The notes under the pieces are model-generated. The model was given only the letters and a program-made list of their open reading frames with translations. It did no database searches and was not told the origin of the DNA. From a virus: DNA of 25,399 bases. Where the stretch lies: positions 1 to 25,399 of the IMG/VR virus record IMGVR_UViG_3300015371_000901. One strand, written 5' to 3'. Position numbers and translations under genes: made by a program. Positions within the stretch are counted from its first letter, which is position 1. The number at the start of each line of letters is the position of its first letter. Below, piece by piece: positions 4,305-19,000 of the stretch.

Positions 4305-5722
4305 TGTTCACTATCACGAACCCGCTCAGCCTGCTGCCTAACCGGAGACGTTCCTCAAGCGTGGTGCCGCTGGGGATGAATGAGCTTATGTCGTACTTCA
4401 GCTACGGGAGCAGCATGTACCCGATCTACGGGAACACGTCGTTCGGGAGCAACCCGCAGGTGGAGATTCAGAGCACCATGGCGTCCCTGGGGGCGGAGGC
4501 GTACAGTGCCAATGGCCCGATCTTCGCCTGCGTCATCGTCAGGCTCTCGCACTTCGCGGAGGCGAGGTTCCAGTACCGTCAGCTGCACAAGGGCAGGGCG
4601 GGCGACCTGTTCGGCAAGCAGGACCTTCGCGTACTGGAGAAGCCCGGCCCTAACCAGACCACCGGCGACATGCTGGGGCGGGCGCTCCTGGACGTTGACC
4701 TTGCCGGCAACTGGCTGGCGACCAGGCGTGACGACAAGATCATCCGCATGAGACCGGACTGGGTCAGCGTCGTGGTGGGGAGCAGGCAGGAGGGCATCGC
4801 TGGACGTAACTCGCTGGACGCTGAGACACTCGGCTATATCTACCATCCGGGAGGACGTGGGAGCGGGGAGGAGCCGGAGCTGCTGCTGGCCGAGGAGGTG
4901 GCGCATTTCATGCCGTACCCCGACCCGGTCGAGCCGTACAAGGGGATGAGCTGGATCACGCCGGTGATCAGGGAGGTCATGGCCGACAACGCGGCTCGGG
5001 ATCACAAGCTGGCATTCTTCGAGCGCGGGGCCACGTCCAACCTGGCGATCAACATTGACCCGGCCCGTGTGAACGAGGAGGAGTTCAAGGAGTTCGTCGA
5101 GGCGTTCCGGTCGAAGCACGAGGGGCTGTCAAATGCGTACAAGACGATGTTCCTGCGCGGTGCGGCTGACATGACGGTGATCGGGAACAACTTTGAGCAG
5201 ATGGACTTCAAGATCGTGCAGGGCGCAGGTGAGACCAGGATCGCCGCCGCTGCTGGCGTCCCACCGGTGATCGTCGGGCTGAGCGAGGGTCTCCAGGCTG
5301 CGACATACTCCAACTACGACCAGGCCCGCAGGAGGTTCGCCGATGGCACGCTCCGCTTCCTGTGGAGGAACATCGCTGGGTCGCTGGAGACCCTGGTCCC
5401 GCCGCCTGACGATCAGACGCAGCTGTGGTATGACGATCGCGACATCGCGTTCCTGCGGATTGACGCGCAGGAGGAGGCATCGCTGCTTCAGTCAAAGGCC
5501 ACAGCCATCAAGACCCTCGTGGACGGCGGCTTCGAGCCGGATAGCGCCACCGCTGCCATCGACACCGGCGACCTGTCGCTCCTGATCCACACTGGCTTCC
5601 CGACCGTCCAGGTGAACGCCTCGGCAGGGGTGAACGTGAACGAGAGCGTGGATCAGCAGCCCCCGTCACCGGCGATCGGTAACGGGACCCAGCCGAAGGC
5701 AGTACCGGCCAAGACTCCGTGA
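4304..5722 (+). CDS. Portal protein (HK97 family)
   Basis: The 472-residue product forms the dodecameric ring at the unique vertex through which DNA enters and to which the tail attaches. Position directly after the terminase (ATG overlapping the TGA), length and motifs such as GPIFACVIVRLSHF and AGETRIAAAAGVPPVIVGLS fit phage portals of the HK97/SPP1-like fold. The C-terminal ~40 residues are proline/asparagine rich and probably disordered. Near the end, 5690-5702 contains a chance or decayed version of the 13-bp repeat. Confident call. Confidence 0.93.
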   Translation: MFTITNPLSLLPNRRRSSSVVPLGMNELMSYFSYGSSMYPIYGNTSFGSNPQVEIQSTMASLGAEAYSANGPIFACVIVRLSHFAEARFQYRQLHKGRAGDLFGKQDLRVLEKPGPNQTTGDMLGRALLDVDLAGNWLATRRDDKIIRMRPDWVSVVVGSRQEGIAGRNSLDAETLGYIYHPGGRGSGEEPELLLAEEVAHFMPYPDPVEPYKGMSWITPVIREVMADNAARDHKLAFFERGATSNLAINIDPARVNEEEFKEFVEAFRSKHEGLSNAYKTMFLRGAADMTVIGNNFEQMDFKIVQGAGETRIAAAAGVPPVIVGLSEGLQAATYSNYDQARRRFADGTLRFLWRNIAGSLETLVPPPDDQTQLWYDDRDIAFLRIDAQEEASLLQSKATAIKTLVDGGFEPDSATAAIDTGDLSLLIHTGFPTVQVNASAGVNVNESVDQQPPSPAIGNGTQPKAVPAKTP

Positions 5723-6321
5723 ACGTCGAGCACCTGGCGACGGACTTTGACGCCTACAGAGAAGCGTACGGAGAGCTGAGCCACACCGACCGGCGTCGGC
5801 TCTCTGCGCTGTGGGCGGAGATGTACCCAGACCAGCGCCACGCCGACCACCTGAACGCCACCTGGTTCTTCGAACGGTACAGCCCAGAGCGCGTCATCGA
5901 GCTTGGAGGCTGGGACGGCTACCTGGCGCTGTGCATGATGAGCACGTTCGCGTGTATCCGATCGTGGCGCAACTATGAGATAGCCGAGCCGCAGTCGGTC
6001 TGCTCGCTCAAGGGCTACAGGAGGGTTCTGCTAGGCAAGCCCATCTGGGAGTACCGGAAGCTGAGCGCGGATTCGTTCGTGGCCACCCATGTCATCGAGC
6101 ACCTGTCAGCGAGTGAGCTCAGTCTTCTGATCCCGCTGCTGGACGTGAAGACCTGCCTGATCGAGGCGCCGCTGGAGGTGTCGCCGCGCTCGTGGAGAGG
6201 GCAGCTTAGCTCGCACGTTTTGGAGGTTGGGTGGGACGCTGTCGACAGGATGTTCGCTGAGAGCAACTTCGCTCCAGACCACCTCTGGAGCAACGGGCGC
6301 TTCTACATTCATCGGCACTAG
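5719..6321 (+). CDS. Class I SAM-dependent methyltransferase-like protein
   Basis: This 200-residue protein starts at a GTG overlapping the portal stop (GTGA) with no ribosome site, so translational coupling is likely. Motif I is VIELGGWDGYLA (59-70), the acidic strand-2 end is NYEIAEP (85-91), and HVIEHLS (124-130) matches the region found in small-molecule methyltransferases. It would transfer a methyl group from S-adenosylmethionine; the substrate is unknown. Placement between portal and prohead protease is unusual. A second protein of the same broad type (10808-11293) shares the HVxEHL motif. It ends in a TAG that is also the start of a truncated 13-bp repeat. Confidence 0.75.
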   Translation: MNVEHLATDFDAYREAYGELSHTDRRRLSALWAEMYPDQRHADHLNATWFFERYSPERVIELGGWDGYLALCMMSTFACIRSWRNYEIAEPQSVCSLKGYRRVLLGKPIWEYRKLSADSFVATHVIEHLSASELSLLIPLLDVKTCLIEAPLEVSPRSWRGQLSSHVLEVGWDAVDRMFAESNFAPDHLWSNGRFYIHRH

Positions 6322-6338: not shown

Positions 6339-7361
6339 ATGCCCTGGGACGTGAAGAAGGACCGACGCTGTCCATCCAGCCGTCCGTGGGGCGTGGTCAA
6401 GCAAGGTGACAAGACGCTCGAAGGGTGCCACGTCTCGCAGGTTCATGCAGAACGCCAGCAGGCAGCCCTGTACGCAAACGAGCCATCTAGCCGAAGACAG
6501 TCGCCGATGGCAAGGAGCGAGGAGGACAACGTGGACGACGTCATAAACGAAGAGGTCGAGCTGGGAGGTGGAGACGCGGTCAGCTTCTGTCGGGCCACGT
6601 TTGACGGTTCTGGTATGGAGATTCAGGACTCGGACGCCTCCATGCCGATGCTGGTCGGGAAGTTCGCCAGCTACGGCAACTGGAACGAGATTTACAGCCC
6701 CGGAGAGGCCCGCGAGATGGGCCTGCGAGGGGATCGCTACATGGAGCGGGTTCTGGGTGGTGCGTTCACTAAGACTCTCCAGGAGCGAGCGGGGCAGATT
6801 CGGCTGCTGTTCAACCACGGCCTCGACCCCAGTGTCGGCAAGAAGCCGCTGGGTGAGATTGTTGAGGTGGAGGAGCAGGAGGACGGCCCGCATTATCGCG
6901 CCAAACTGTTTGACGCATCGTACGTGCGTGACCTGATTCCAGCGCTCCGGGCCAACCAGTTCGGGAGCAGCTATCGCAGCGACCTGGTCAAGGGCAAGCT
7001 GCGCAAGCGCCCCGGAGACTCCGAGCACAACCCGGAGGGCCTGCCTGAAGCTACGGTGGCTGAGGTCAGGCTCAAGGAGTTCGGGCCGGTAACGTTCCCG
7101 GCTGAAGCAAAGGCAACGGCGGGTGTTCGCTCCCTCACCGATTGGGCGAGGAGCGAGGACCTGGCGCTTGCGCTGAGACGGATGATCGTGGAAGAGCCGA
7201 TCGTCCAGGATGATCCCAAGTCGCGTCACTCGGACGATGACGAGCAGCCGGATCCGGAGGTCGAAGCCGTTCGGGCCACTGCAGTCTCATTCAAGAGCCG
7301 ACGCACTCGGAAGGGCAACTATCTGAGTGCTAAGGAGGTGAGACCAAAGTGGCGTCTGTAA
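6339..7361 (+). CDS. Prohead (capsid maturation) protease with N-terminal CHATKA-like domain
   Basis: The 340-residue product cleaves the scaffold part of the capsid protein during head maturation. Residues 1-47 (MPWDVKKDRRCPSSRPWGVV, then GCHVSQVHAERQQAALYAN) are a small module common at the front of phage head proteins. The S57-like protease domain covers ~80-260: LLFNHGLDP (predicted catalytic His160), GSSYRSDLVKG (predicted Ser210 or Ser211) and LKEFGPVTFPAEA (246-257). AGGA precedes the ATG at 6339. An internal in-frame ATG at 6507 (MARSEEDN) follows a full 13-bp repeat and would give a 284-residue form without the N-terminal module. The C-terminus overlaps the capsid gene. Confidence 0.88.
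   Translation: MPWDVKKDRRCPSSRPWGVVKQGDKTLEGCHVSQVHAERQQAALYANEPSSRRQSPMARSEEDNVDDVINEEVELGGGDAVSFCRATFDGSGMEIQDSDASMPMLVGKFASYGNWNEIYSPGEAREMGLRGDRYMERVLGGAFTKTLQERAGQIRLLFNHGLDPSVGKKPLGEIVEVEEQEDGPHYRAKLFDASYVRDLIPALRANQFGSSYRSDLVKGKLRKRPGDSEHNPEGLPEATVAEVRLKEFGPVTFPAEAKATAGVRSLTDWARSEDLALALRRMIVEEPIVQDDPKSRHSDDDEQPDPEVEAVRATAVSFKSRRTRKGNYLSAKEVRPKWRL
6488..6500 (+). repeat. Start-associated 13-bp repeat, copy 2 (inside the protease gene)
   Basis: TAGCCGAAGACAG lies within the linker of the protease gene, read through as SSRRQSP. It sits exactly 19 bases before the in-frame ATG at 6507. The TAG is out of frame with the protein, so the gene stays open. Confidence 0.75.
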
Positions 7362-8857
7362 TCGAGACGCTCCGAGACGAGATTTCGGAGCTTGAGTCCC
7401 AGGTGAACGAGATGAAGGTCGAGTTCGCCGGGAAGCGATTCGACGACGCAGCCCGCGCTAAGTGGAACGAGCTGAACGAGTCCCTGGACGACAAGCAGGA
7501 GACTCTGGAGGAGAACGTGATTCGCGAGGAGCGGGTACGCGAGCTGTCGAACGATGACAGCAACGTGGTACCGATCGAGGACAAGAGGTTCCAGACCCGG
7601 AGGGCAAACGTCCCCACGGGCGAGGCCATCTACGACCTCTCAACGATCCAGCGAGACTGGTCGGATCCGGAGGTCGAGGGCAAGGAGCTGAAGGACCGGG
7701 CCAAGAGGGCCATCGAGGACTCCGACTACCCGTACCGCGGGCAGTACGGCCACGAGTCGTACCGAACGGAGGAGGACCTGCAGGGCTCCGCCGAGGACCT
7801 GATCATGCAGCACGACACGCGGGAGGGACTGCTCGCCCGCCGCATCCTGGTCACCGGCGCCCCCGCCTACAAGCGGGCGTGGGGCAAGCAGCTTCTCGGT
7901 GAGTACCTGACGACGCATGAGTCGCAGGTCCTCGCCATGGGCACCGAGCGTGCGTTGAGCCTGACGACAACCGCGGGAGGCTTCGCGGTTCCGTTCACGC
8001 TTGACCCGACGGTGATCCGCGTGTCCAACCTGGCGGTCAACCCGTTTAGGGCTATCAGCCGGGTGATCCCCGTACCGACCGACGACTGGAAGGGCGTCGC
8101 GTCCACAGGCATCACCGCTGCGTTTGGGACCGAGGCCGCGGCAGCGACCGACAGCGCCCCGGCGTTCACGCAGCCCTCCGTCTCCACCGAGAAGGCGTTC
8201 GCGTTCGTCCCGTACTCGATTGAGATCGGGATGGACTGGGACGCGCTCGGCACCGAGATGGGTGGGATGCTGGCCGACGCCAAGGACGAGCTGGAGGCGA
8301 GCAAGTTCGCCGTCGGCACAGGTACCAACGAGCCAAAGGGTGTCGTCACGGCCATCTCGGCCTCGATGTACACCGCAGCCGCGACAAACGCCATCGTCTA
8401 CGCCGACCTGGACGGCCTGGAGGCTGCTCTGCCTCCGCGCTTCCGCTCCAGGGCGGTCATGGTGGCGAACAGGGCGACCTACCAGAAGATCCGGCACTTT
8501 GACTCCGCGGGTGGCCGTGGAGCATGGGAGGCCGGGTATCAGCTGGAGTCCGGTCTGCCGAACGCCGTCCCGACGCCAGGCTCTCTCAACGGGCGCCTGC
8601 TCGGTTACCCGGCGTATGAGGCCAGCGCCATGTCGAGTACGTTCACGACAGGACAGCTGGTTGGTCCGATCATCGGTGACTTCAGAAACTTCATCATCGT
8701 GGATCGGATCGGGCTCACGACGGAGACCATCCCGCACCTGTTCGACACCACGAACAACATGCCCACCGGTCAGAGGGGCCTGTACGCCTACTGGCGCACC
8801 GGCTCCGGGATCACGACCACGACCGCAGCCGGCTTCAAGATCCTCAAGCTGGCGTAG
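7349..8857 (+). CDS. Major capsid protein with N-terminal scaffold domain
   Basis: The 502-residue HK97-fold shell protein. The GTG start lies 10 bases after AAGGAGGTGA, a very strong ribosome site placed inside the protease gene and fitting the most abundant virion protein. Residues 1-65 are a charged coiled coil (ISELESQVNEMKVEFAG and similar), the delta/scaffold segment that the upstream protease should remove. The mature shell domain begins by about residue 200 (TTTAGGFAVPFTLDP is the usual N-arm motif) and runs to the C-terminus (YWRTGSGITTTTAAGFKILK). The exact cleavage site is not visible. Confidence 0.95.
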   Translation: MASVIETLRDEISELESQVNEMKVEFAGKRFDDAARAKWNELNESLDDKQETLEENVIREERVRELSNDDSNVVPIEDKRFQTRRANVPTGEAIYDLSTIQRDWSDPEVEGKELKDRAKRAIEDSDYPYRGQYGHESYRTEEDLQGSAEDLIMQHDTREGLLARRILVTGAPAYKRAWGKQLLGEYLTTHESQVLAMGTERALSLTTTAGGFAVPFTLDPTVIRVSNLAVNPFRAISRVIPVPTDDWKGVASTGITAAFGTEAAAATDSAPAFTQPSVSTEKAFAFVPYSIEIGMDWDALGTEMGGMLADAKDELEASKFAVGTGTNEPKGVVTAISASMYTAAATNAIVYADLDGLEAALPPRFRSRAVMVANRATYQKIRHFDSAGGRGAWEAGYQLESGLPNAVPTPGSLNGRLLGYPAYEASAMSSTFTTGQLVGPIIGDFRNFIIVDRIGLTTETIPHLFDTTNNMPTGQRGLYAYWRTGSGITTTTAAGFKILKLA

Positions 8858-9226: not shown

Positions 9227-9439
9227 ATGGCCCGTCCAAGGAAAGAGGAGCCCCTGTACTACATCGCCAAGGAGGGCGGCTACGCCGTCATCGGCGACGA
9301 GCACTGCTCATTCCAGGCAGGGGTGACCACGGTGGAGCGCGGACACCCGCTGCTTGACTCGTGCCCGGACTCGTTTGAGCCGTTCGTGCCCACGTACCCG
9401 GTCAAGCCGCGTGAGCACCAGCCCGCTTCCGCGTCCTAG
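9227..9439 (+). CDS. Small conserved head-region protein
   Basis: The 70-residue protein has a clear ribosome site (AAGGAG, 6-base spacing). It begins MARPRKEEPLYYIAKEGGYA and contains a beta-rich core (VIGDEHCSFQAGVTTVERGH), with an aromatic acidic stretch (SFEPFVPTYP). Small proteins with this start and layout often follow actinophage capsid genes; the function is not established. Its 3' end overlaps the next gene. Confidence 0.7.
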   Translation: MARPRKEEPLYYIAKEGGYAVIGDEHCSFQAGVTTVERGHPLLDSCPDSFEPFVPTYPVKPREHQPASAS

Positions 9440-9761
9440 AGTTCTCCCGCTCGATGAGCATGAGCGCATCTGCGAGGCGCTGCACTGCCACTACCGCGCG
9501 GAGCTTGGAAAGGTGGCGATGCAGGTGGTCGTCTATCGGGCCGCCCTCGAGGACGCTGGTCTGGTGCCACCGGACAAGGACGGCGAGGAGCTGCTCGCCA
9601 TGTGGAGGGATGCAGCGGCGGTGATCAGCACAGCCTCAGAGTTCGTTCACCGTTTAGGAACGAGCCGAGAGTTACTAGACTCCGAATGGAGAAACGGACC
9701 GGATCGTTGGAAGGCGCCCTTCGGGCGCTGGAGAGAGGAGGAGAAGAAGCATGGGGCTTGA
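9411..9761 (+). CDS. Hypothetical helical protein
   Basis: GTG 9411 gives 116 residues and overlaps the previous gene by 29 bases. It is the best in-frame start, because no ATG occurs before the conserved-looking part. That part (LDEHERICEALHCHYRAELG, YRAALEDAGLVPPDKDGEEL) is helical and charged and ends in a basic/acidic tail (WREEEKKHG). The frame also opens at 9354, but that section reads as low-complexity Arg/Ser and is likely a shadow of the upstream gene. No family is recognised. Position suggests a head-assembly or accessory role. Confidence 0.6.
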   Translation: MSTSPLPRPRVLPLDEHERICEALHCHYRAELGKVAMQVVVYRAALEDAGLVPPDKDGEELLAMWRDAAAVISTASEFVHRLGTSRELLDSEWRNGPDRWKAPFGRWREEEKKHGA

Positions 9762-10743
9762 CGTGTTGGTCCTCGGTGCGGGAGGTCCCGCCGGGGTGAA
9801 CGTCTGCGGGGCCCTCGAGGCGGCGGGGCATAACCCGATCGCAGCCGATCAGAACGCGAAGCATCTCGTCTGGACGCATCCCTGGGAGACTGCTCCGTGG
9901 CCACCCCGGCTGGGAGCAGCTGAGTACGACGTTGCGATGGCGCAGCCCGATGGATTAGTCACGTGGTTGTCCGATCGGCGAGAGGAGGCTGGTACGACGT
10001 TCCTTCCCTCAGCCCAGACCATCGCCCTCTGCCAGGACAAGTACGAGTGCGGGCTGCAGTGGAGACGGACGGGGCAGCGGCAGGACAAGGTGTTCCTGGT
10101 TGACAGCGAGGTGAGCTACTGGGACGCGAGCGCAATCCTGGGTACGCCGTTCTGGATGCGAGCGCGGCACGGCGCCGGAGCGCGAGGCGCCATCGTCGTG
10201 CGGGAGCCCGAGCAGGGGCACTACTGGTACCGATTCTGGAAGAGTCGGAACTGGGATACGGACTTCATCTGCGAGGGCTACCTGCCCGGCGCGGACTACT
10301 CGTGGTGCGGCGTCTTCGACGAGGGCCTGATGGCGAGCTTCCAGCGTCAGCGGATTGAGTACATCTACCCGCACCTGTCACCGGAAGGACTGACAGGCAC
10401 GCCGACCATCGCGGAGATCACTGCTGAGCCCGTTATCCACGACGCTGCGCTCAGGGCGGTGAAAGCCGTTGACCGGAACCCGCGCGGCGTGTTCTGCGTG
10501 GATCTGAAGGAGGATGAGGAAGGCTACCCGCGTCCCACTGAGATCAACGCTGGGCGCTTCTCAACGACGGTCGGGCTATGGTCGCAGTTCGGGACGCGGT
10601 CCAACTTCGTGGCGCTCGCAGCTGAGCTGGCGGTGGGTGATCGCTCGCGTCTGGATGATTGGGAGAAGCTCCCGACGGGGCTGACGCTCTCGCGTCACAT
10701 CGACTGTGGTCACGTCTTCACGAGAGAGCAGGTGCTGGTATGA
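9751..10743 (+). CDS. ATP-grasp ligase (CarB-like fold)
   Basis: A 330-residue protein starting inside the previous gene. The N-terminal Rossmann-like pre-ATP-grasp domain starts DVLVLGAGGPAGVNVCGAL (4-22). The ATP-grasp part shows PFWMRARHGAGARGA (133-147, the glycine-rich loop), ICEGYLPGADYSWCGVFDEG (173-192) and the metal-binding region GVFCVDLKEDEEG with PTEINAGRFSTT (Asp251, Glu264 and Asn266 predicted). Such enzymes use ATP to join a carboxylate to an amine or thiol through an acyl-phosphate. The lysine often seen in the Gly-rich loop is replaced by Arg. The substrate is unknown. Its neighbours are methyl- and glycosyltransferase-like genes, suggesting a modification pathway (inference). 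Confidence 0.85.
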   Translation: MGLDVLVLGAGGPAGVNVCGALEAAGHNPIAADQNAKHLVWTHPWETAPWPPRLGAAEYDVAMAQPDGLVTWLSDRREEAGTTFLPSAQTIALCQDKYECGLQWRRTGQRQDKVFLVDSEVSYWDASAILGTPFWMRARHGAGARGAIVVREPEQGHYWYRFWKSRNWDTDFICEGYLPGADYSWCGVFDEGLMASFQRQRIEYIYPHLSPEGLTGTPTIAEITAEPVIHDAALRAVKAVDRNPRGVFCVDLKEDEEGYPRPTEINAGRFSTTVGLWSQFGTRSNFVALAAELAVGDRSRLDDWEKLPTGLTLSRHIDCGHVFTREQVLV

Positions 10744-10811
10744 GCTGGGTCTGGGTGGGAATGATCGCGGTAGCAGCTATTACGGTAGTCGTCTTCAGCA
10801 CGGGCCGATGA
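10740..10811 (+). CDS. Tiny single-helix membrane peptide (23 aa)
   Basis: ATG at 10740 overlaps the ATP-grasp stop (ATGA), and its own TGA overlaps the next ATG (ATGA). The peptide begins MSWVWVGMIAVAAITVVV and ends FSTGR: one transmembrane helix with a single basic C-terminal residue. Perfect overlap at both ends makes chance less likely. Two similar peptides occur at 11290 and 22463. Function unknown. Confidence 0.55.
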   Translation: MSWVWVGMIAVAAITVVVFSTGR

Positions 10812-11293
10812 AGCTCAACCTGGGATGTGGAGAGTATCCGATGCCCGGGTACACCAACGTTGATCTGTACGTCCAGCCTCGGGACATTCACGACATGGAC
10901 GCCGAGTTCATCAAGGGTGACTTCCGCGAGATGGAGTTCGAAGACGTGGAAGAGGTGCAGATGCAGCATGTGCTGGAGCACCTGCCCTGGGGTGAGTCGC
11001 TCCCGATCCTGAAGCAGGTTCACGGCTGGATGCGGGAGGGAGGCTTGATCGTTGTGGAGGTACCCGACATGGTGCAGATCATGGCCGCAGGGTCCCGTCT
11101 CGATGACTGGTACCAGTTCGTCTACGGCTCGCAGCAGCACGCAGGGGAGTTCCACCTTGCCGGGTTCACCGCTCAGATGCTGTGGGACGTCATGTACCGC
11201 GCTGGGTTCCACCACATCGAGGTGAAGGTGTTCGCCACCGAGCATCCGATCCGGAAGAACCTCCCGTGCCTCGAGGGTCGTGGCTACGCGTGA
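10808..11293 (+). CDS. Class I SAM-dependent methyltransferase
   Basis: The 161-residue protein shows motif I NLGCGEYPMPGYTNVDL (4-20) with an acidic residue at the end of strand 2, FIKGDFRE (34-41), HVLEHLP (54-60) and EGGLIVVEVPDM (77-88). This matches UbiE/predicted-SAM-methyltransferase proteins common in sugar-biosynthesis clusters. The start at ATG 10808 is chosen because motif I begins there; an open frame to 10706 is only read-back into the previous gene. It sits between two membrane peptides and is translationally coupled on both sides. Substrate unknown, plausibly a sugar or amino-acid derivative. Confidence 0.85.
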   Translation: MKLNLGCGEYPMPGYTNVDLYVQPRDIHDMDAEFIKGDFREMEFEDVEEVQMQHVLEHLPWGESLPILKQVHGWMREGGLIVVEVPDMVQIMAAGSRLDDWYQFVYGSQQHAGEFHLAGFTAQMLWDVMYRAGFHHIEVKVFATEHPIRKNLPCLEGRGYA

Positions 11294-11370
11294 GCGGTAA
11301 GATCGTGTTCCTCGTCTGGTGGTTCTCGCTTCTGATCTTTATCGCGCTGGGATCGGTGTTCGGTCGGTGA
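11290..11370 (+). CDS. Tiny single-helix membrane peptide (26 aa)
   Basis: GTG 11290 overlaps the methyltransferase stop, and its TGA overlaps the GTG of the next gene. It reads MSGKIVFLVWWFSLLIFIAL then GSVFGR: one hydrophobic helix with short basic ends. It has the same architecture and the same double overlap as the peptide at 10740. Function unknown. Confidence 0.55.
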   Translation: MSGKIVFLVWWFSLLIFIALGSVFGR

Positions 11371-11981
11371 AGGAGCTTCTGGTCATCCTCAACCCCCGGG
11401 AGATTGAGAGCTGCCTGCGTTCGTACGAGGAGCTTGACATCGACCAGCTGTTCCTGAAGCGTATGACCGAGATTGAGATCGGAGAGCGCTGGAAGGAAGT
11501 GATGGAGCTGGCCAAGGGTTACGACTGGCTGTGGATCCAGAGTGACGACGGGATCGTTCGCCAGCATGCGCTCGATGCGGTCAGGTTCATCCGCACGACC
11601 AACATGTACGAGTGCGTCACCGGCTACTCCAACCTGACCGTCCACGCATCGGTGGTCAACATGTCGATGGCGCCGCTGCCTGACTTCCCGACTCCGGCCT
11701 GGCAGCGCACCTGGATGAGTCTCAGCTCTGTCATGACCTGGCCGACCTGGGTGATCAACACGCAGTTCGCGGGGTTTGCTCTCACAGGCATGTCCTTGGA
11801 GCTATGGAAGCGGTATCCGTACAACCCGGACCTGAGCGCGGACTTCAACCTGTCTCGGCGCCTGAAGGCATCGAAGATCAAGATTGCCGGTGTCAGGGAT
11901 GCGCTGGTCTGGCACCTGAAGGGCTCGCAGACGTTCCCGTTGCTGACCGATGGCCCGAGCGAGATGGTGCTGGAGACTTGA
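11367..11981 (+). CDS. Glycosyltransferase-like protein (GT-A type)
   Basis: The 204-residue protein (GTG start overlapping the membrane peptide) has YDWLWIQSDDGIV (52-64), which resembles the DxD metal/nucleotide-sugar site of GT-A enzymes. Further on are GFALTGMSLELWKRYPYNPD (136-155) and a C-terminal DALVWHLKGS (178-187) like the ED/HxxG region of such folds. It is shorter than typical GT-A enzymes (~230-300 aa), so the fold assignment is moderate. It may transfer a sugar to a virion or cell surface molecule together with the two other glycosyltransferase-like proteins in this block. Confidence 0.65.
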   Translation: MKELLVILNPREIESCLRSYEELDIDQLFLKRMTEIEIGERWKEVMELAKGYDWLWIQSDDGIVRQHALDAVRFIRTTNMYECVTGYSNLTVHASVVNMSMAPLPDFPTPAWQRTWMSLSSVMTWPTWVINTQFAGFALTGMSLELWKRYPYNPDLSADFNLSRRLKASKIKIAGVRDALVWHLKGSQTFPLLTDGPSEMVLET

Positions 11982-12163
11982 GCGAGGAGCTCACCCGGAG
12001 CGAATGCATGATCCTGATCATCGTCCTCCTGGAGTTCAGGCAGAAGGTAAATGACAACACGTCGCTGACGCGACTGTACGACAAGCTTCAGCGCATGGCG
12101 GTTGACCTGGAGCGAGATGATAGTGACTTCATTCCCTTGATGCCAGAAAGGGGGGAGACGTGA
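11978..12163 (+). CDS. Hypothetical small helical protein
   Basis: TTG 11978 overlaps the upstream stop (TTGA) and gives 61 residues. ATG 12008, preceded by CGGAG, is an alternative giving 51. It has a hydrophobic helix (CMILIIVLLEFRQKV) followed by a charged helix (SLTRLYDKLQRMAVDLERDD), so it may be membrane-attached or oligomeric. The stop overlaps the next GTG. No family is recognised. Confidence 0.55.
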   Translation: MSEELTRSECMILIIVLLEFRQKVNDNTSLTRLYDKLQRMAVDLERDDSDFIPLMPERGET

Positions 12164-12516
12164 GCACGCTTGAGCTGGGATTCGTGATCCCGGACACCGT
12201 TGACGAGCTTCTGGAGTTCTGGGGGATGAATGAACGGTGGGAATGCTCACTGCTCCACCAGCCATTAGTCCGAAGGTGGGCTTGGGAGATTCACGCAACC
12301 CAGGAGTTCGTGCCCGAGCGTCTTCCAACCAGGATCGGCGAGCGGGTTCTGATCGCAAGGCTTGCCTTTGACGTCACCGGGGAGTGGAAGGTGTCACACG
12401 GGCAGCTCGTGGGACCTGACTACCCGCGCACAATCTTCCCCGTAGACGATGGTCGGTTCACGGTGTATCCGGGAGATAGGATCAACCTCAACGTCCACAT
12501 GGTCGGTGTGCGGTGA
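12160..12516 (+). CDS. Hypothetical protein
   Basis: The 118-residue product starts at GTG 12160, with AGGGGGGAGA upstream. It is Trp-rich in the first half (LLEFWGMNERWECSLL, RRWAWEIHAT) and beta-rich in the second (IARLAFDVTGEWKVSHG, GRFTVYPGDRINLNVHM). No cysteine cluster, signal peptide or known motif is visible. The stop overlaps the next GTG, so it is co-translated with the glycosyltransferase that follows. It may be an accessory or carbohydrate-related beta protein (weak inference). Confidence 0.6.
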   Translation: MSTLELGFVIPDTVDELLEFWGMNERWECSLLHQPLVRRWAWEIHATQEFVPERLPTRIGERVLIARLAFDVTGEWKVSHGQLVGPDYPRTIFPVDDGRFTVYPGDRINLNVHMVGVR

Positions 12517-13274
12517 CAACCGGTCAGGCACCTAAACGTAAGGGCAGCGACCAGGTGCTCATCGCTGCGACAATGGGTGATCCCGGTGTCCGCTTCCACG
12601 ATTTCATTGCCTCGCTGCTGAACCTGAAGACGTACATGAGGGACCGAGCGCTGATCAATATGCTGCCCGGGGTCAACGTCACGCACAACTGCAACGAGGC
12701 GTGCAAGATGATGCTGGAGAAAGGGATGGAGTGGCTGTGGCTGATCGGGGACGATCACGTGTTCGCGCCCAACATTGTCGAGGAGCTGATGAAGCATGAC
12801 GTGGACGTCATCGTGCCCCACTGTTTGAAGCGAGTCCCGAGCTTTGAGCCGGTGATCTACGCCGAGTCCGACGAGGATGACATTCACACCCCGTACCTGG
12901 ATATCCCGGCGACCAGGATGCCGAGACTTCCAGAGAGCGGACTGACCCCGGTGCACGCGGCCGGTACGGCCGGGATGTTGATCAGGCGCCGCGTCCTGGA
13001 GCAGATGGAGCAGCCGTACTTCAGAACGTACGGGCATCAGAACGAGGATCTGATGTTCTGCAAGCGCATCCGGGAGATGGGCATTCAGATCTACTGTGAC
13101 CCTGAGATCAAGCTGGGGCATATCGGGTTGGTAGCGGTATATCCGATCGGGCTGCTGGCGCCTAACGATGGACGCTGGCTCGGATGGGGAGTGGAGCTGA
13201 GCCTCGGAGCCGAAGACATCAACATGAACGTTCACCTGCGACGTATCGCCGGGAACAGCCTGGCCCCGGCATGA
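12513..13274 (+). CDS. Glycosyltransferase (GT-A fold), paralog A
   Basis: The 253-residue protein carries the GT-A signature WLWLIGDDHVF (74-84, with DDH as the metal-binding DxD equivalent), VDVIVPHCLKR (97-107), HAAGTAGMLIRR (148-159), NEDLMFCKRIREMGIQIYCD (177-196) and LGH (201-203). The order and spacing match GT2-like enzymes that move sugars from nucleotide donors. The protein at 14528-15376 shares each of these motifs, so the two are paralogs. Sugar donor and acceptor are unknown. The GTG start overlaps the previous stop. Confidence 0.82.
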   Translation: MTTGQAPKRKGSDQVLIAATMGDPGVRFHDFIASLLNLKTYMRDRALINMLPGVNVTHNCNEACKMMLEKGMEWLWLIGDDHVFAPNIVEELMKHDVDVIVPHCLKRVPSFEPVIYAESDEDDIHTPYLDIPATRMPRLPESGLTPVHAAGTAGMLIRRRVLEQMEQPYFRTYGHQNEDLMFCKRIREMGIQIYCDPEIKLGHIGLVAVYPIGLLAPNDGRWLGWGVELSLGAEDINMNVHLRRIAGNSLAPA

Positions 13275-13285
13275 GGAGCTGACAC

Positions 13286-13669
13286 ATGGCACAGACTCAT
13301 CTACCCCAGCACTGGCGTCTTCGCCTGCTGGACCTGTTCGAGAAGCCACGCAGCGAGGCAAACCTGGACTTCCTCCAAGCCTGGTCTCAGGCCGAGGGAG
13401 GGACAGCGACTCGCAACCCGCTCAACACCACCTACCCGCTGCCGTGGGGATCAAGCGACTACAACACGTCGCACGTCAAGAACTACAGCACGCCGCTCCA
13501 GGGGATCGCGGCGACCGCTCTGACCCTCGATCAGGCCACGTTCGCTCCCATTCTCGCTGCGCTGAGCGCGGACGAGACAGCGGAGACCAAGGTGGACCTG
13601 TGCGAGGAGGCCTTGCGAGTGTGGGGCACGAACCCGCAGCTGATGCGGGAAATTCTTGAAACGATGTAA
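13286..13669 (+). CDS. Lysozyme-like (putative muralytic) protein
   Basis: A 127-residue protein with a good ribosome site (GAGGAG). The pattern FLQAWSQAEGGTATRNPLNT (29-48), SSDYNTSHVKNYSTPLQGI (56-74) and TALTLDQATF resembles a small lysozyme/transglycosylase-type domain found in many actinophage proteins. Glu37 is the likely acid, and NPLNTT, YN and a Y-x-x-x-x-x-G core are present. If active it would cut peptidoglycan glycan strands, as an endolysin or a virion-associated enzyme. It has no signal peptide or wall-binding domain. The family pattern is recognised with moderate confidence; activity is inferred. Confidence 0.65.
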   Translation: MAQTHLPQHWRLRLLDLFEKPRSEANLDFLQAWSQAEGGTATRNPLNTTYPLPWGSSDYNTSHVKNYSTPLQGIAATALTLDQATFAPILAALSADETAETKVDLCEEALRVWGTNPQLMREILETM

Positions 13670-13682
13670 GACGGGAGGCACG

Positions 13683-14501
13683 ATGAGGAAGAAGAACCGC
13701 GCACTGAGTGACCTGGGCCCGCAACTGCTTGGCAGGGTGCAGAGCAAGCCCGACGCACGTAACTGGAATCTCTCCGCCTTTCTGGGAGACGCCGCGAGCC
13801 TTCGTGATCAGGCCGTAGCCGAGCTGAAGCAGACCTCCGTGGGTTACACGTACTTCAAGTCACACTCCATGCCAGCGTCCAGCCACTGGGCGAAAGCTCT
13901 CGCGCTCCTCGCTCAGATCAACGGCCCCGCGCCGTCTCCGACGGGAGACAAGATCTGGGCTGATCAGGAGCCGATCCTGGACCAGGGGCAGACGCCACAC
14001 TGCGTTGGCTTTGACGGCGCTCAGTGGGGCAACACGCTTCCCGTTGACGATCACTACACCAACGAGGACGGCCATGCCATCTACTACGACTGCAAGGTTC
14101 TCGATGGGCAGCCGAAGGTGGAGAACGGAACGTCCGTTCACTCACTCGCTCGCGTCCTGAAGAATCGTGGCAGGCTGAGCGCATACGCCTGGGCTGGAGA
14201 TGTGACGACCATCTCGGACTGGCTGCGTACGAAGGGCCCGATCATGGCTGGCACCGACTGGCACAACAACATGTTCAACCCCGACTCCAACGGGATCATC
14301 AAGCTTGGCGGCGGGATCGCTGGAGGCCACGGTTACCTTCTGGCTGGGGTGGAGACGTTCGGCTCGGCGCTGTACTACCGGATCAGAAACTCCTGGTCAG
14401 CGAACTGGGGGATGAAGGGAGAGGCGCGGATTCTCGTCTCTGACTTCGCTACCCTGCTGAGCAGCAACGGTGAGGCTCTCGCCGCTCTAGAGCTTCCGTA
14501 A
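13683..14501 (+). CDS. Papain-like (C1) cysteine peptidase
   Basis: The 272-residue protein has the full papain set: oxyanion Gln101 and nucleophile Cys107 in DQGQTPHCVGF (100-110), His216 in GGHGYLLAGVE (214-224) and Asn236 in RNSWSANWGMKGEARI (235-250). There is no signal peptide, and an inhibitory pro-segment is not obvious, although residues 1-85 precede the catalytic domain. ATG 13683 is chosen because GGGAGG lies just upstream; the frame is open to 13656. It directly follows the lysozyme-like gene. Possible roles are virion protein processing, cleavage of host surface or cross-linked peptides, or anti-host action. The family call is firm. Confidence 0.88.
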   Translation: MRKKNRALSDLGPQLLGRVQSKPDARNWNLSAFLGDAASLRDQAVAELKQTSVGYTYFKSHSMPASSHWAKALALLAQINGPAPSPTGDKIWADQEPILDQGQTPHCVGFDGAQWGNTLPVDDHYTNEDGHAIYYDCKVLDGQPKVENGTSVHSLARVLKNRGRLSAYAWAGDVTTISDWLRTKGPIMAGTDWHNNMFNPDSNGIIKLGGGIAGGHGYLLAGVETFGSALYYRIRNSWSANWGMKGEARILVSDFATLLSSNGEALAALELP

Positions 14502-14508
14502 AGGCCCC

Positions 14509-14521
14509 TAGCCGAAGACAG
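14509..14521 (+). repeat. Start-associated 13-bp repeat, copy 3
   Basis: TAGCCGAAGACAG lies 19 bases before the ATG at 14528, after a TAA stop. It is identical to the copies at 6488 and 21473. Confidence 0.78.
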
Positions 14522-14527
14522 CGGGTG

Positions 14528-15376
14528 ATGGCCACCGTACTCCCGCTGCCAGTCAGCACACAGGAACGTCTCACCTACCCTCCGGGGACAATCGTGATCC
14601 CGTGTCACGATCTGGCGCGGTACCACCAGTTCACGCATGACATGCACCTGCTGGATGTTCCGGACGGGACCATCGCCAGCTACCAGCGCAGCCTCTCGAT
14701 AGTTCAGAACCTGAACGAGGCCGTTAAGGCCATGCTCCAGGAGCAGAAGCCGCCGGTTGACGAGGCAGGCAATCCCAAGCTCGATGAGTTCGGGGAACCG
14801 CTACCGGCTCCTCCTGACAGCCAGTGGGCCTGGTTCATCGCCGATGACCACTGCTTCTCGCGCACCGTGGTCGTTGACCTGCTCCGGCGGGACGTTGACA
14901 TCGTGGTCCCTCTGGTCTGCCGTCGTGGACCGCCGTATTCACTCGTGATCTTCGACGACGAGCGCGGAGAGGACGAGCACGGACGGACGATGTACCATCA
15001 GGTGCAGTATGATGAGCTTCCGGAGGACGGCGGACTGTTTGAGGTGCACGCGGCGGGTAGCGCCGGGATGATGGTCAAGCGCCACGTCTTCGAGGAGATC
15101 GGGTTCCCGTGGTTCGAGAACAGCGACGGGATCAGCACCAACGAGGACGTGGAGTTCTGCCGGAAGGCGAGAGAGGCAGGATTCAAGATCTGGTGTGACA
15201 CCGATGTACGTCTCGGGCACCTGGGAGCCGTTGCTGCCTGGCCCGCTAGGCGGGAAGGTGAGTGGGGGATCGTGTTCGACTTTCAGGGGGTCGGTCAGAA
15301 CCAGATCTGGATGCCGGGAGGAGTTCGAGCGTCCGACGAAGGCGTGGGCACGGCCACTGGGCAGGTTGACTGGTGA
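14528..15376 (+). CDS. Glycosyltransferase (GT-A fold), paralog B
   Basis: The 282-residue protein is a paralog of the one at 12513. It has WAWFIADDHCF (100-110), VDIVVPLVCRR (123-133), HAAGSAGMMVKRHV (174-187), NEDVEFCRKAREAGFKIWCD (205-224) and LGH (229-231). It carries an insert (about residues 73-98, Pro/Glu rich) and a longer C-terminus than paralog A. The ATG at 14528 follows the 13-bp repeat at 19 bases; a GTG sits just before it at 14525. There is no clear Shine-Dalgarno sequence. Duplication and divergence suggest two sugar-transfer steps or two acceptors (inference). Confidence 0.82.
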   Translation: MATVLPLPVSTQERLTYPPGTIVIPCHDLARYHQFTHDMHLLDVPDGTIASYQRSLSIVQNLNEAVKAMLQEQKPPVDEAGNPKLDEFGEPLPAPPDSQWAWFIADDHCFSRTVVVDLLRRDVDIVVPLVCRRGPPYSLVIFDDERGEDEHGRTMYHQVQYDELPEDGGLFEVHAAGSAGMMVKRHVFEEIGFPWFENSDGISTNEDVEFCRKAREAGFKIWCDTDVRLGHLGAVAAWPARREGEWGIVFDFQGVGQNQIWMPGGVRASDEGVGTATGQVDW

Positions 15377-15588: not shown

Positions 15589-16017
15589 ATGCCTGAGATC
15601 TGGCCGGACGAGGGACTGGACCTCGCACTGGCATACTTCCCGAGGTCGGGTACGGCGCTCCCGGCCAACACCTGGATGGCGCTGTTCACGGCGTTCACCG
15701 CCAACACGGTCGGGACCAACACGGGCACCATGGGCGCCTACACCGAGCCAAGCGGCGGCAACTACGCTCGCCAGACGATCAGCTCGGCGTCGTGGGGTGC
15801 GCAGGCCGCGGCCACGTCGGGACGCAAGAGCGCGTGCTCGCAGATCACCTTCGGGACAGCGTCAGCTTCCTGGGGGACGGTCAACGGGTTCACGATCACA
15901 AACTCCCTCTCCGGCGGGAGCTGCTACTTCGCCGCCAACTTCGATGACACGACTGCGGTGCCGATTCAAAGTAACGACGTGATTAAGGTAACTCCTACGA
16001 TCCAGTACAATCAATGA
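15589..16017 (+). CDS. Virion surface/fibre-type protein
   Basis: The 142-residue beta-rich protein has a ribosome site (GAGGAGG). Its pattern, EGLDLALAYFPRSGT, then NTWMALFTAFTAN, GGNYARQTISSASWGA, TFGTASASWGTVNGFTITNS and a gel-like C-terminus, is the layout of small fibre/decoration proteins common in phage tail or capsid gene blocks. It is Ser/Thr/Ala/Gly rich with almost no charge. The family pattern is recognised with moderate confidence; attachment to head or tail is not shown. Confidence 0.55.
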   Translation: MPEIWPDEGLDLALAYFPRSGTALPANTWMALFTAFTANTVGTNTGTMGAYTEPSGGNYARQTISSASWGAQAAATSGRKSACSQITFGTASASWGTVNGFTITNSLSGGSCYFAANFDDTTAVPIQSNDVIKVTPTIQYNQ

Positions 16018-16032
16018 TCGGAGGCGTTGTAA

Positions 16033-16060
16033 TTCTCTCTTCCCTACCCGGAGGAGAGAA
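16033..16060 (+). promoter_or_regulatory. Hairpin hiding the HNH ribosome binding site
   Basis: TTCTCTCTTCC (16033-16043) and GGAGGAGAGAA (16050-16060) form an 11-bp stem with one G-U pair and a 6-base loop. The 3' arm is the Shine-Dalgarno sequence of the HNH gene, whose ATG is 3 bases further on. It should lower translation. Similar sequestration of homing-endonuclease start regions is known in T4. Confidence 0.7.
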
Positions 16061-16062
16061 CG

Positions 16063-16563
16063 ATGCAGTTCGACCAGTTCGTGGAAGTTCGGCCGGTTGG
16101 AAAATCCATCTCGCAGTGGGCCAAGGATGAGAATGGCAACTGGTGGTTCTATGGGCGCGGGATTAGCTACAGAGCGCGAATACCAGCAGAGGAAGCTCAG
16201 TGCCAGGAGTGCGGAGCGATGTTCATACGACGGACGCCTCGGCCCAGCGAATACGCGCAGGGCGCTCGCGGCTGGTACTGCTCACGTCAGTGCGCTAATC
16301 GCGCCTACAAACCGCTTCGACATCGTAAGGGCGCAGACCACCCGAACTGGAAAGAAAGGAACTATCGGCGCATCATGGCTGCACACATCGGGCGTGAGCT
16401 ACGGCCCGAGGAGACGGTCCACCATGTCAACGGCGATCGCGATGATAACCGGATCGAGAATCTGGAGCTATGGGCAAGTCGTCACCCTAAGGGCCAGCGG
16501 ATCGAGGATCTGGTCACATTCGCTCGGCAGATTCTCGCTGACTATGGAAAGCTGGTCCGATAG
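16063..16563 (+). CDS. HNH homing endonuclease
   Basis: The 166-residue protein has a treble-clef-like zinc pair, CQEC (47-50) and C73/C77 (CSRQC), followed by an HNH core: AAHIGRELRPEETVHHVNGD (106-125, His120/His121), DDNRIENLELWASRHPKGQR (127-146) and Asn133. This is the HNH_3-like free-standing homing endonuclease type. Such genes copy themselves into cognate genomes and are often inserted between structural genes, as here between two surface-protein genes. Translation appears to be restrained by the hairpin upstream. Confident call. Confidence 0.88.
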   Translation: MQFDQFVEVRPVGKSISQWAKDENGNWWFYGRGISYRARIPAEEAQCQECGAMFIRRTPRPSEYAQGARGWYCSRQCANRAYKPLRHRKGADHPNWKERNYRRIMAAHIGRELRPEETVHHVNGDRDDNRIENLELWASRHPKGQRIEDLVTFARQILADYGKLVR

Positions 16564-16597
16564 GCCGCACTGCACCTGCTTTGAAGGAGTAGTTTAG

Positions 16598-17791
<1,194 letters not shown>

Positions 17792-17794
17792 CTG

Positions 17795-19000
17795 ATGGCG
17801 GCTACCTGTCGCGTCATCGCTGGCCCGACTCCTGGCACCGATAACAGCGTTCACAAGCTGACGCTGACCGACAGCGTGGCGGCTGGAGAGACGATTGTGT
17901 TCCTCTCCGGGCTGTCTCTCTACGTCACCGAGGGGCTGGTTGGCTTCGCGGACGTGGATACCGGCCCGTACCTGAGCTTCGACTGTGAGTACAGCGCTAT
18001 CAGCAGCAATGGACGCGGAATCTCCTGCTTCTCGGCCTACTCTCCGAACGGGGTAGCGTCCGGGACGACGCTGCGCTTCAGCGTCAAGTACACGGCTGGT
18101 GCGTACTACCACGGGCAGTCTCCGTACGCAGTCGCTCTGGCTCTCAACTCCGGCGACGGTCGCTACATGGTGTTTGATACCTACGCTGCGGCGGACACCA
18201 ACCTGGATACCACCCCGCACACGCCCTCAATCACCAGCGCCGCGGACGCGATTATCCTCGGATTCTTCGCCGGGTACAACTCTGGTACTCCAGGGTGGTG
18301 GACTCCAGACGGGGGCGAGACCGAGTTTGCCGACGAGGCGGCAGGGACGGAGTCGGGCTACTGCATCGCTGGCAACTACCGGATCGTGACCAGCCCGTAC
18401 ACCGGAGCGTCCGGAGGCACCCTGGCTGGATCTACCGGGTTCGGGACGCTGATCGCGTCGTACAAGGCGACGTCGGCAGAGCCGAATCGAGGGCCGACCA
18501 TCCTGGCTGGCTCACGTGAGGTTGGCGTCACGGTATCCAACGACTTCTGGGAGGACGGGCACACCGGCGCATTTCCGTTCGTCTGCGCCACGACAGGCAC
18601 GTCCACGCAGATGGGCATGACCCCGATGCTGGAGAATGACACACCCAGCGCCATCACCGGAGTCAAGCTCGGGGTCTACACGCATGACTCAGGGAACAAC
18701 CGACCAGGCACGCTGATCGCGTCCGGTACGGTGTCACCTGACCCGGTCAAGGGCGGCAGGTTCATGGCTGACGTGGTCGCCTCCCTCAACTCAGGTACGA
18801 CCTACTGGCTGGCCTGCTCATCACATGGGCAGAGGTTCGACCTGGCCGGGGTAGCAAGTACCAACTTCGGCCGAGAGAGTCTCACGGAGATGCCCGGTAC
18901 CTGGTCTCAGACAGCGAATATGCAGGTCCAACCCGCCATCTGGATCGAGCAGCAGCCAACGGGGATCACCAAGGCCGGCACGGGGATCATCGGGCCGTAA
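17795..19000 (+). CDS. Virion surface/fibre protein ending in one repeat unit
   Basis: The 401-residue protein is Thr/Ser/Gly rich and beta-structured. Residues 1-230 (TLTDSVAAGETIVFLSGLSL, then AYYHGQSPYAVALALNSGDG and GGTLAGSTGFGTLIASYKAT) form one unit. The second (~245-390) has a jelly-roll/carbohydrate-binding look (ITGVKLGVYTHDSGNNRPGT and LNSGTTYWLAC). The C-terminal ITKAGTGIIGP matches the first half of the short repeats that fill the next protein, which starts immediately after this stop. It may be a tail fibre or head-surface protein. I recognise no exact family. Confidence 0.6.
   Translation: MAATCRVIAGPTPGTDNSVHKLTLTDSVAAGETIVFLSGLSLYVTEGLVGFADVDTGPYLSFDCEYSAISSNGRGISCFSAYSPNGVASGTTLRFSVKYTAGAYYHGQSPYAVALALNSGDGRYMVFDTYAAADTNLDTTPHTPSITSAADAIILGFFAGYNSGTPGWWTPDGGETEFADEAAGTESGYCIAGNYRIVTSPYTGASGGTLAGSTGFGTLIASYKATSAEPNRGPTILAGSREVGVTVSNDFWEDGHTGAFPFVCATTGTSTQMGMTPMLENDTPSAITGVKLGVYTHDSGNNRPGTLIASGTVSPDPVKGGRFMADVVASLNSGTTYWLACSSHGQRFDLAGVASTNFGRESLTEMPGTWSQTANMQVQPAIWIEQQPTGITKAGTGIIGP

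Follow-up and report, generated by a model that had tools for sequence, protein, structure and literature searches.

The virus record IMGVR_UViG_3300015371_000901, from a soil-type phage, is complete in IMG/VR at 25,399 bases, and the whole of it is the window analyzed here. Downstream of its major capsid protein (MCP) gene, it encodes a group of glycosyltransferases (GTs) and putative sugar-tailoring enzymes (Table 1). We consider it likely that the genes at 9751-12516, together with the GT genes at 12513 and 14525 (GT 1 and GT 2), make up a cassette, expressed late, whose products glycosylate the phage particle itself. The cassette combines recognizable enzyme families with intact active sites in GT 1 and GT 2, and it occupies a position next to the MCP gene that is conserved among relatives, with tailoring genes that vary. 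A first-pass annotation, made from the DNA letters, had proposed a decoration island acting on virion proteins. The genes are indeed co-located more than chance would have it; the observation is partly confirmed and its interpretation partly supported: comparison backs a decoration set acting on virion proteins well, with a slot of GT and tailoring genes that recurs in relatives, and two proposed members, the peptidase at 13656 and the protein at 13286, fall outside the recurrent set.

The glycosyltransferase slot after the capsid gene

A scan with the single MCP sequence retrieved two relatives, an MCP alignment and profile gave 80 loci, and L004 was reached through an alignment of the GTs (L-numbers denote the loci or contigs of relatives). 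Most loci with enough downstream sequence encode a GT of the PHROG 1574 type, to which GT 1 and GT 2 belong, usually 160-1900 bp past the MCP. When 40 records were searched over the whole contig, one copy was found in each of 26. In 22 of these 26 carrying contigs, it lies no more than 2 kb past the MCP, against 1.7 expected at random (P about 2e-23, to be read as a description and not as a true probability because the phages are related). The main GT is thus not scattered among the relatives. Eleven loci have a GT of the GT-B fold 230-350 bp past the MCP, in place of the PHROG-1574-type enzyme or, in L048, in addition to it. The GT-B-fold GT family PF00534, which is unrelated to the PHROG-1574-type family, was found in 8 of the 40 whole records, in the same slot by the locus coordinates. 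A GT follows the MCP directly in 30 of the 40 records. The relative nearest by GT differs from the one nearest by MCP in 17 of 23 cases, and the GTs appear to have been exchanged between phages yet kept in place. In L056 (19703-20512), L057 (20098-20883), and L067 (14915-16714), the PHROG-1574-type GT lies about 8 kb past the MCP, immediately ahead of an unassigned gene, possibly of the tail.

The content of the slot was tallied with Pfam on 118 open reading frames (ORFs) lying up to 3.5 kb from the MCP and compared with that of 120 ORFs lying 3.5-9.5 kb downstream; gene calls were simple longest-ORF picks, and some ORFs in both sets are spurious. The slot ORFs matched the GT families Glycos_transf_2 (12), Glyco_tranf_2_3 (11), and Glycos_transf_1 (6), and also NAD epimerase (3), rhamnosyl O-methyltransferase/CmcI (3), hexapeptide transferase (2), gp80 (5), and a few more. 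The downstream ORFs returned a short mixed list including tail tube, and their GT matches include those of the longer islands of L048 and L064. These large alternative islands after the MCP (11697-19120 in L048, 11488-15252 in L064) hold GT-B, GT2, CmcI-like methyltransferase, and further GT2 genes, and that of L064 also holds a deacetylase-like protein.

The slot is a fixed place filled with differing combinations of GTs and sugar-tailoring enzymes. In L002, the PHROG-1574-type GT is accompanied there by a dehydratase of polysaccharide type and a hexapeptide acyltransferase, and in L004 by a relative of the window's third GT (GT B) and the acyltransferase. Modules recur: the pair formed in the window by the ATP-grasp and methyltransferase genes also follows the MCP in L020, and GT B has relatives in the slots of L004/L023 and L015. 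The stretch 9751-14501 of the window looks like an insertion, because its flanking genes are neighbours in L048, where a homologue of the small protein o9354 runs straight into a relative of GT 2, which is followed by gp80.

Predicted enzymes of the cassette

GT 1 and GT 2 are paralogs, as the first-pass annotation had suggested, with 32% identity over 225 aligned residues (E 4e-39). Their matches in Pfam are weak and of the GT2 type, and the relative in L081 is above the Glycos_transf_2 cut-off (1.4e-9). In an alignment of 27 sequences including both window copies, D81 (DDH motif), E178-D179 (NED motif), and H203 are invariant. The metal-binding (DxD-type), catalytic-acid (xED), and C-terminal histidine residues are thus intact in both proteins, as in a working GT-A active site. 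The AlphaFold2 (AF2) model of GT 1 (pLDDT 85.7) matched GT-A enzymes of the PDB with a probability of 1.00, which places it in the Rossmann-like GT-A fold. Its best match there is A197 of the virus STIV (E 1.2e-10, TM 0.52/0.67), followed by collagen galactosyltransferases, which act on proteins, and mimivirus R699; the GT of phage Che8 is among the viral fold matches. In sequence, the similarity to A197 is borderline (E 0.0099). A recent tandem duplication was considered as the origin of GT 1 and GT 2 and rejected, because each copy has a closer counterpart in a phage with a single copy (L015, 49%; L048, 50%) than in its partner (34%).

The remaining enzymes are assigned wholly or partly through their relatives. 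GT B, the third GT-like protein of the earlier annotation, is more distant and has a weaker match than the other two. Its relatives are 45-48% identical to it, and the one in L004 matches Glyco_tranf_2_3 at 0.0005; a search of solved structures gave nothing useful. Its start may be at 11367. The putative ATP-grasp assignment is made through a relative, L020:4242-5240 (49% identical), which matches NF009402, the carbamoyl-phosphate-synthase-like ATP-grasp family of NCBIfam, at 1.1e-8, below the curated cut-off. Profile searches of Pfam and NCBIfam gave no family match with a useful E-value for the window protein itself. K97, D251, E264, and N266 are common to both known copies, and the last three are of catalytic type. 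Further relatives were found neither by a single-sequence scan of viral contigs nor in phage records, and an alignment scan returned only L020. In both the window and L020, the ATP-grasp gene adjoins the methyltransferase gene. The latter is open from 10706, with a likely start at 10808, and its assignment is weak but consistent: its own score is weak, and among its relatives in L020 and L078, that in L020 scores better (Methyltransf_23, 6e-5). The 118-aa protein at 12160 had no match in Pfam, PHROGs, or the relatives' loci.

A second methyltransferase, proposed earlier at 5719, was not recovered: beyond a motif-I-like stretch, the protein matched nothing in Pfam, PHROGs, NCBIfam, or solved structures. 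It is 48% identical to L017:9009-9611, which directly precedes the GT of L017 in the post-MCP slot. Its gene is upstream of the capsid gene in the window, whereas the L017 relative lies after the MCP.

From these families we infer the simplest course of events, in which late expression, a virion-protein acceptor, the donor sugar, the order of the steps, and the ATP-grasp product would be as follows. Late in infection, the soluble GT-A enzymes would move sugars, in the cytoplasm, from host nucleotide-sugar pools to the capsid protein or to head or fibre proteins encoded just downstream. GT B and the second PHROG-1574-type copy could then lengthen or branch the glycan, one or more methyltransferases could cap it, and the ATP-grasp ligase might add an amino acid or another carboxylate via an amide bond. 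We put forward only tentatively, as a rather unlikely extension, that the ATP-grasp ligase, the methyltransferase, and the three GTs equip the capsid with a methylated glycan that is aminoacylated or bears some other amide-linked group. An entire clade of uncultured phages would in that case keep a dedicated, exchangeable "coat-chemistry" slot by the capsid gene, similar to the way in which bacteria vary the loci for their surface polysaccharides.

Genes around the cassette and candidate acceptors

The left part of the window is a head module, with terminase (phrog_9, 3.5e-48), portal (1.2e-40), and head maturation protease (8.8e-15) genes. After the MCP come two or three small genes and then, in order, those at 9751, 10706/10808, 11319, 12160, 12513, 13286, 13656, and 14525, followed by the gp80-type fibre gene at 15589 and by connector genes. 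This order and the positions agree with the first-pass annotation, as does the close packing: there are 4-bp overlaps at portal/5719, 12160/12513, and 14525/15373, and an 11-bp overlap between the ATP-grasp gene and the gene before it. The latter encodes o9354, whose true start is probably further into the frame. A homologue of o9354 lies directly before the GT gene in L048 and near the GT in four other relatives.

Table 1. Features of the window discussed in the text, with the matches that bear on them.
Feature	Position	Strand	Matches and remarks
Possible methyltransferase	5719..6321	+	Motif-I-like ELGGWDG stretch
HK97-type MCP	7349..8857	+	phrog_10 major head protein 2.4e-36; anchor of the slot
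Small protein o9354	9354..9761	+	phmmer relatives in L048, L041/42, L028/29, L024
Putative ATP-grasp carboxylate ligase, carbamoyl-phosphate-synthase-like	9751..10743	+	Via L020 relative
Putative SAM methyltransferase (NLGCG motif)	10808..11293	+	phrog_6636 methyltransferase 7.9e-6; weak Pfam matches
GT-A-like glycosyltransferase B (SDDG motif)	11319..11981	+	Glyco_tranf_2_3 0.0049
118-aa protein	12160..12516	+	Orphan
GT-A glycosyltransferase 1	12513..13274	+	phrog_1574 1.2e-10; Anp1 4.4e-5; Glyco_tranf_2_3 9e-5
127-aa orphan	13286..13669	+	Labelled lysozyme-like in the first-pass annotation
Papain-type (C1A) cysteine peptidase	13656..14501	+	Peptidase_C1 1.5e-7; phrog_16701 5e-35; PDB cysteine peptidases 3.7e-8
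GT-A glycosyltransferase 2	14525..15376	+	phrog_1574 1.1e-15; closest L048 (50%)
gp80-type fibre protein	15589..16017	+	Gp80 8.4e-15; Ser/Thr 24%

The MCP and the Ser/Thr-rich products of the genes at 15589-21475 are candidate glycan acceptors. Among the latter, the gp80-type fibre protein is a candidate whose relatives lie just downstream of the GT in L048 and L004. The 824-aa protein at 19001-21475 has degenerate ESGSGVSSRAGTSG-like repeats, 26% Ser+Thr, and relatives in L027, L032, L030, and L037; it may be a virion fibre with heavy decoration. The protein at 16598-17791 has a signal-like hydrophobic N-terminus, a weak fn3 match, and a proline run from a CCG repeat (16871-16917). Elsewhere in the window are a protein with an L,D-transpeptidase (YkuD) domain upstream of the terminase (97-534, Pfam 1.1e-18) and HNH endonuclease genes in two places, ahead of the terminase (1896-2309) and behind the gp80-type gene (16063-16563).

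Between GT 1 and GT 2 (13286-14501) sits a pair of genes, the 127-aa orphan and the peptidase. The papain-like peptidase called earlier was recovered with clear matches, and its start may be at 13683. The contexts of its Cys, His, and Asn are present (HCVGF, GGHGYLLAG, RNSW); C1A peptidases of solved structure align over the regions of the His and Asn, and a phage cysteine protease over that of the Cys. Its nearest annotated relatives are cysteine proteases of actinophages, and the copy of Arthrobacter phage Mufasa8 sits in a lysis cassette. Its role is probably in the cell wall, in lysis, or in the virion, outside the glycan set. The lysozyme-like label of the orphan was not supported: neither a wall-hydrolase nor any other match was found in Pfam, PHROGs, NCBIfam, or phage records, and a PDB search gave two matches at chance level (E about 0.2). 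Compared with the small neighbouring gene and with the lysin of phage Mufasa8, it resembles neither. Both genes were tried as members of the cassette and left out because they have no counterparts in any relative's slot. They are probably passengers, wall or lysis enzymes.

Alternative readings and known systems

Several points weigh against glycosylation of the particle. L048, L056, L057, and L067 have their PHROG-1574-type GT 7-9 kb from the MCP. MCP and GT identities correlate (Mantel r 0.77), and because the relatives share ancestry, the position counts are not independent and the co-location could partly be inheritance. The ATP-grasp identity comes from one relative, L020, and the AF2 model of the ATP-grasp protein is poor (pLDDT 36). 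Adjacency of GT and capsid genes is no rule, because the GT genes of phages like Che8 are far from the capsid gene. Finally, a glycan on virion proteins is a prediction from the genes.

The enzymes might instead alter the host cell surface, by something like serotype conversion or superinfection exclusion, and change receptors during infection. Surface polysaccharides are usually modified with GTs, epimerases, and acyltransferases, and there are C-terminal matches to the polysaccharide GTs HpsN and rhamnosyltransferase. We nevertheless regard this as unlikely: no GtrA flippase (PF04138) was found in 25 records with a model that was positive in 7 control genomes, the cassette proteins have no transmembrane-like stretch, so that the genes do not make up a gtr-type cassette, and they lie in the head operon, where expression is expected late and exclusion would be of little use. 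It is also quite improbable that the slot is a mere insertion hotspot for unrelated cargo, with glycan enzymes that share no target. The peptidase, the orphan, and an HNH endonuclease in this region of the window would fit such a hotspot, as would the HNH or endonuclease VII genes in the slots of a few relatives; yet glycan functions strongly predominate in the slot when it is compared with the downstream ORFs, two unrelated GT folds occupy the same position, and the GTs stay put although they appear to be exchanged. Action of the GTs on phage DNA, as base hypermodification resisting host nucleases, is very improbable: DNA-decorating phage GTs are known (Shewanella phage Thanatos, PMC12838424), but no thymidylate-synthase-type hydroxymethylase (PF00303) was found in the 25 records, many of them fragments, with a positive control, and the fold matches are GT-A enzymes with protein and glycan acceptors. 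A search for Tet/JBP oxygenases found no match and was uninformative because it had no positive control, the control genomes being silent too.

Glycosylation of the particle thus remains our preferred reading, and similar arrangements occur in unrelated phages. A PHROG-1574-type GT lies just after the MCP in MW202496, MW202711, and Microcystis phage Mel-JY34; the methanogen virus vir323 has one in its head region. In Mel-JY34 (L093), it is a protein annotated as hypothetical (4962-5657), directly after the MCP. A GT-B follows the MCP in Microcystis phage Mae-JY09 and Pontimonas phage phiPsal1 (MCP, GT, methyltransferase, GT2, neck) and lies between portal and MCP in Synechococcus phage S-CBS4. 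A Peptococcaceae element has the order portal, GT, GT2-like, methyltransferase-like, GT, MCP. Like the window, phiPsal1, Mae-JY09, Mel-JY34, and S-CBS4 have one or more GTs among their clustered head genes, to which phiPsal1 and S-CBS4 add a methyltransferase; unlike it, they have smaller sets and no annotated ATP-grasp gene, and the window MCP search did not reach them. The phiPsal1 paper does not discuss its head-cluster GT and methyltransferase genes, and our literature searches found no description of the MCP-linked GT pattern.

Few cases of virion glycosylation have been described in phages. A fixed, glycan-rich slot in many uncultured phages, with its layout repeated in several unrelated cultured ones, suggests that phage capsids carry sugar coats much more often than has been assumed. 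A simple genomic marker for choosing phages for mass spectrometry would be a gene of PHROG 1574 or GT4 type that immediately follows the MCP. PHROG 1574, now listed as unknown, includes both window GTs and the vir323 copy, which is annotated as this PHROG; PHROGs gives it no function, whereas we place it as a GT-A GT linked to capsid genes, which is its likely function. The mycobacteriophages Che8 and Rita have glycans covalently attached to the major capsid protein (Freeman et al. 2023, as cited in PMC11256854). They share with the window phage-encoded GTs, that of Che8 being a fold match, and differ in that the GT genes, as described there for an F1-cluster relative, lie towards the 3' end, a long way from the capsid gene; in the part of PMC11256854 consulted, neither an ATP-grasp ligase nor a set of dehydratases is mentioned. 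A197 of STIV, an essential enzyme of the GT-A type, possibly modifies that virus's capsid protein, which is glycosylated (PMC10551542). It is likewise a minimal viral GT-A enzyme tied to a glycosylated capsid protein, but it comes from an archaeal double-jelly-roll virus, and its sequence similarity is borderline. Virion glycosylation is thus already known in general from Che8, Rita, and STIV A197, and the new part is the exchangeable MCP-linked slot, with its tailoring genes and its putative ATP-grasp step.

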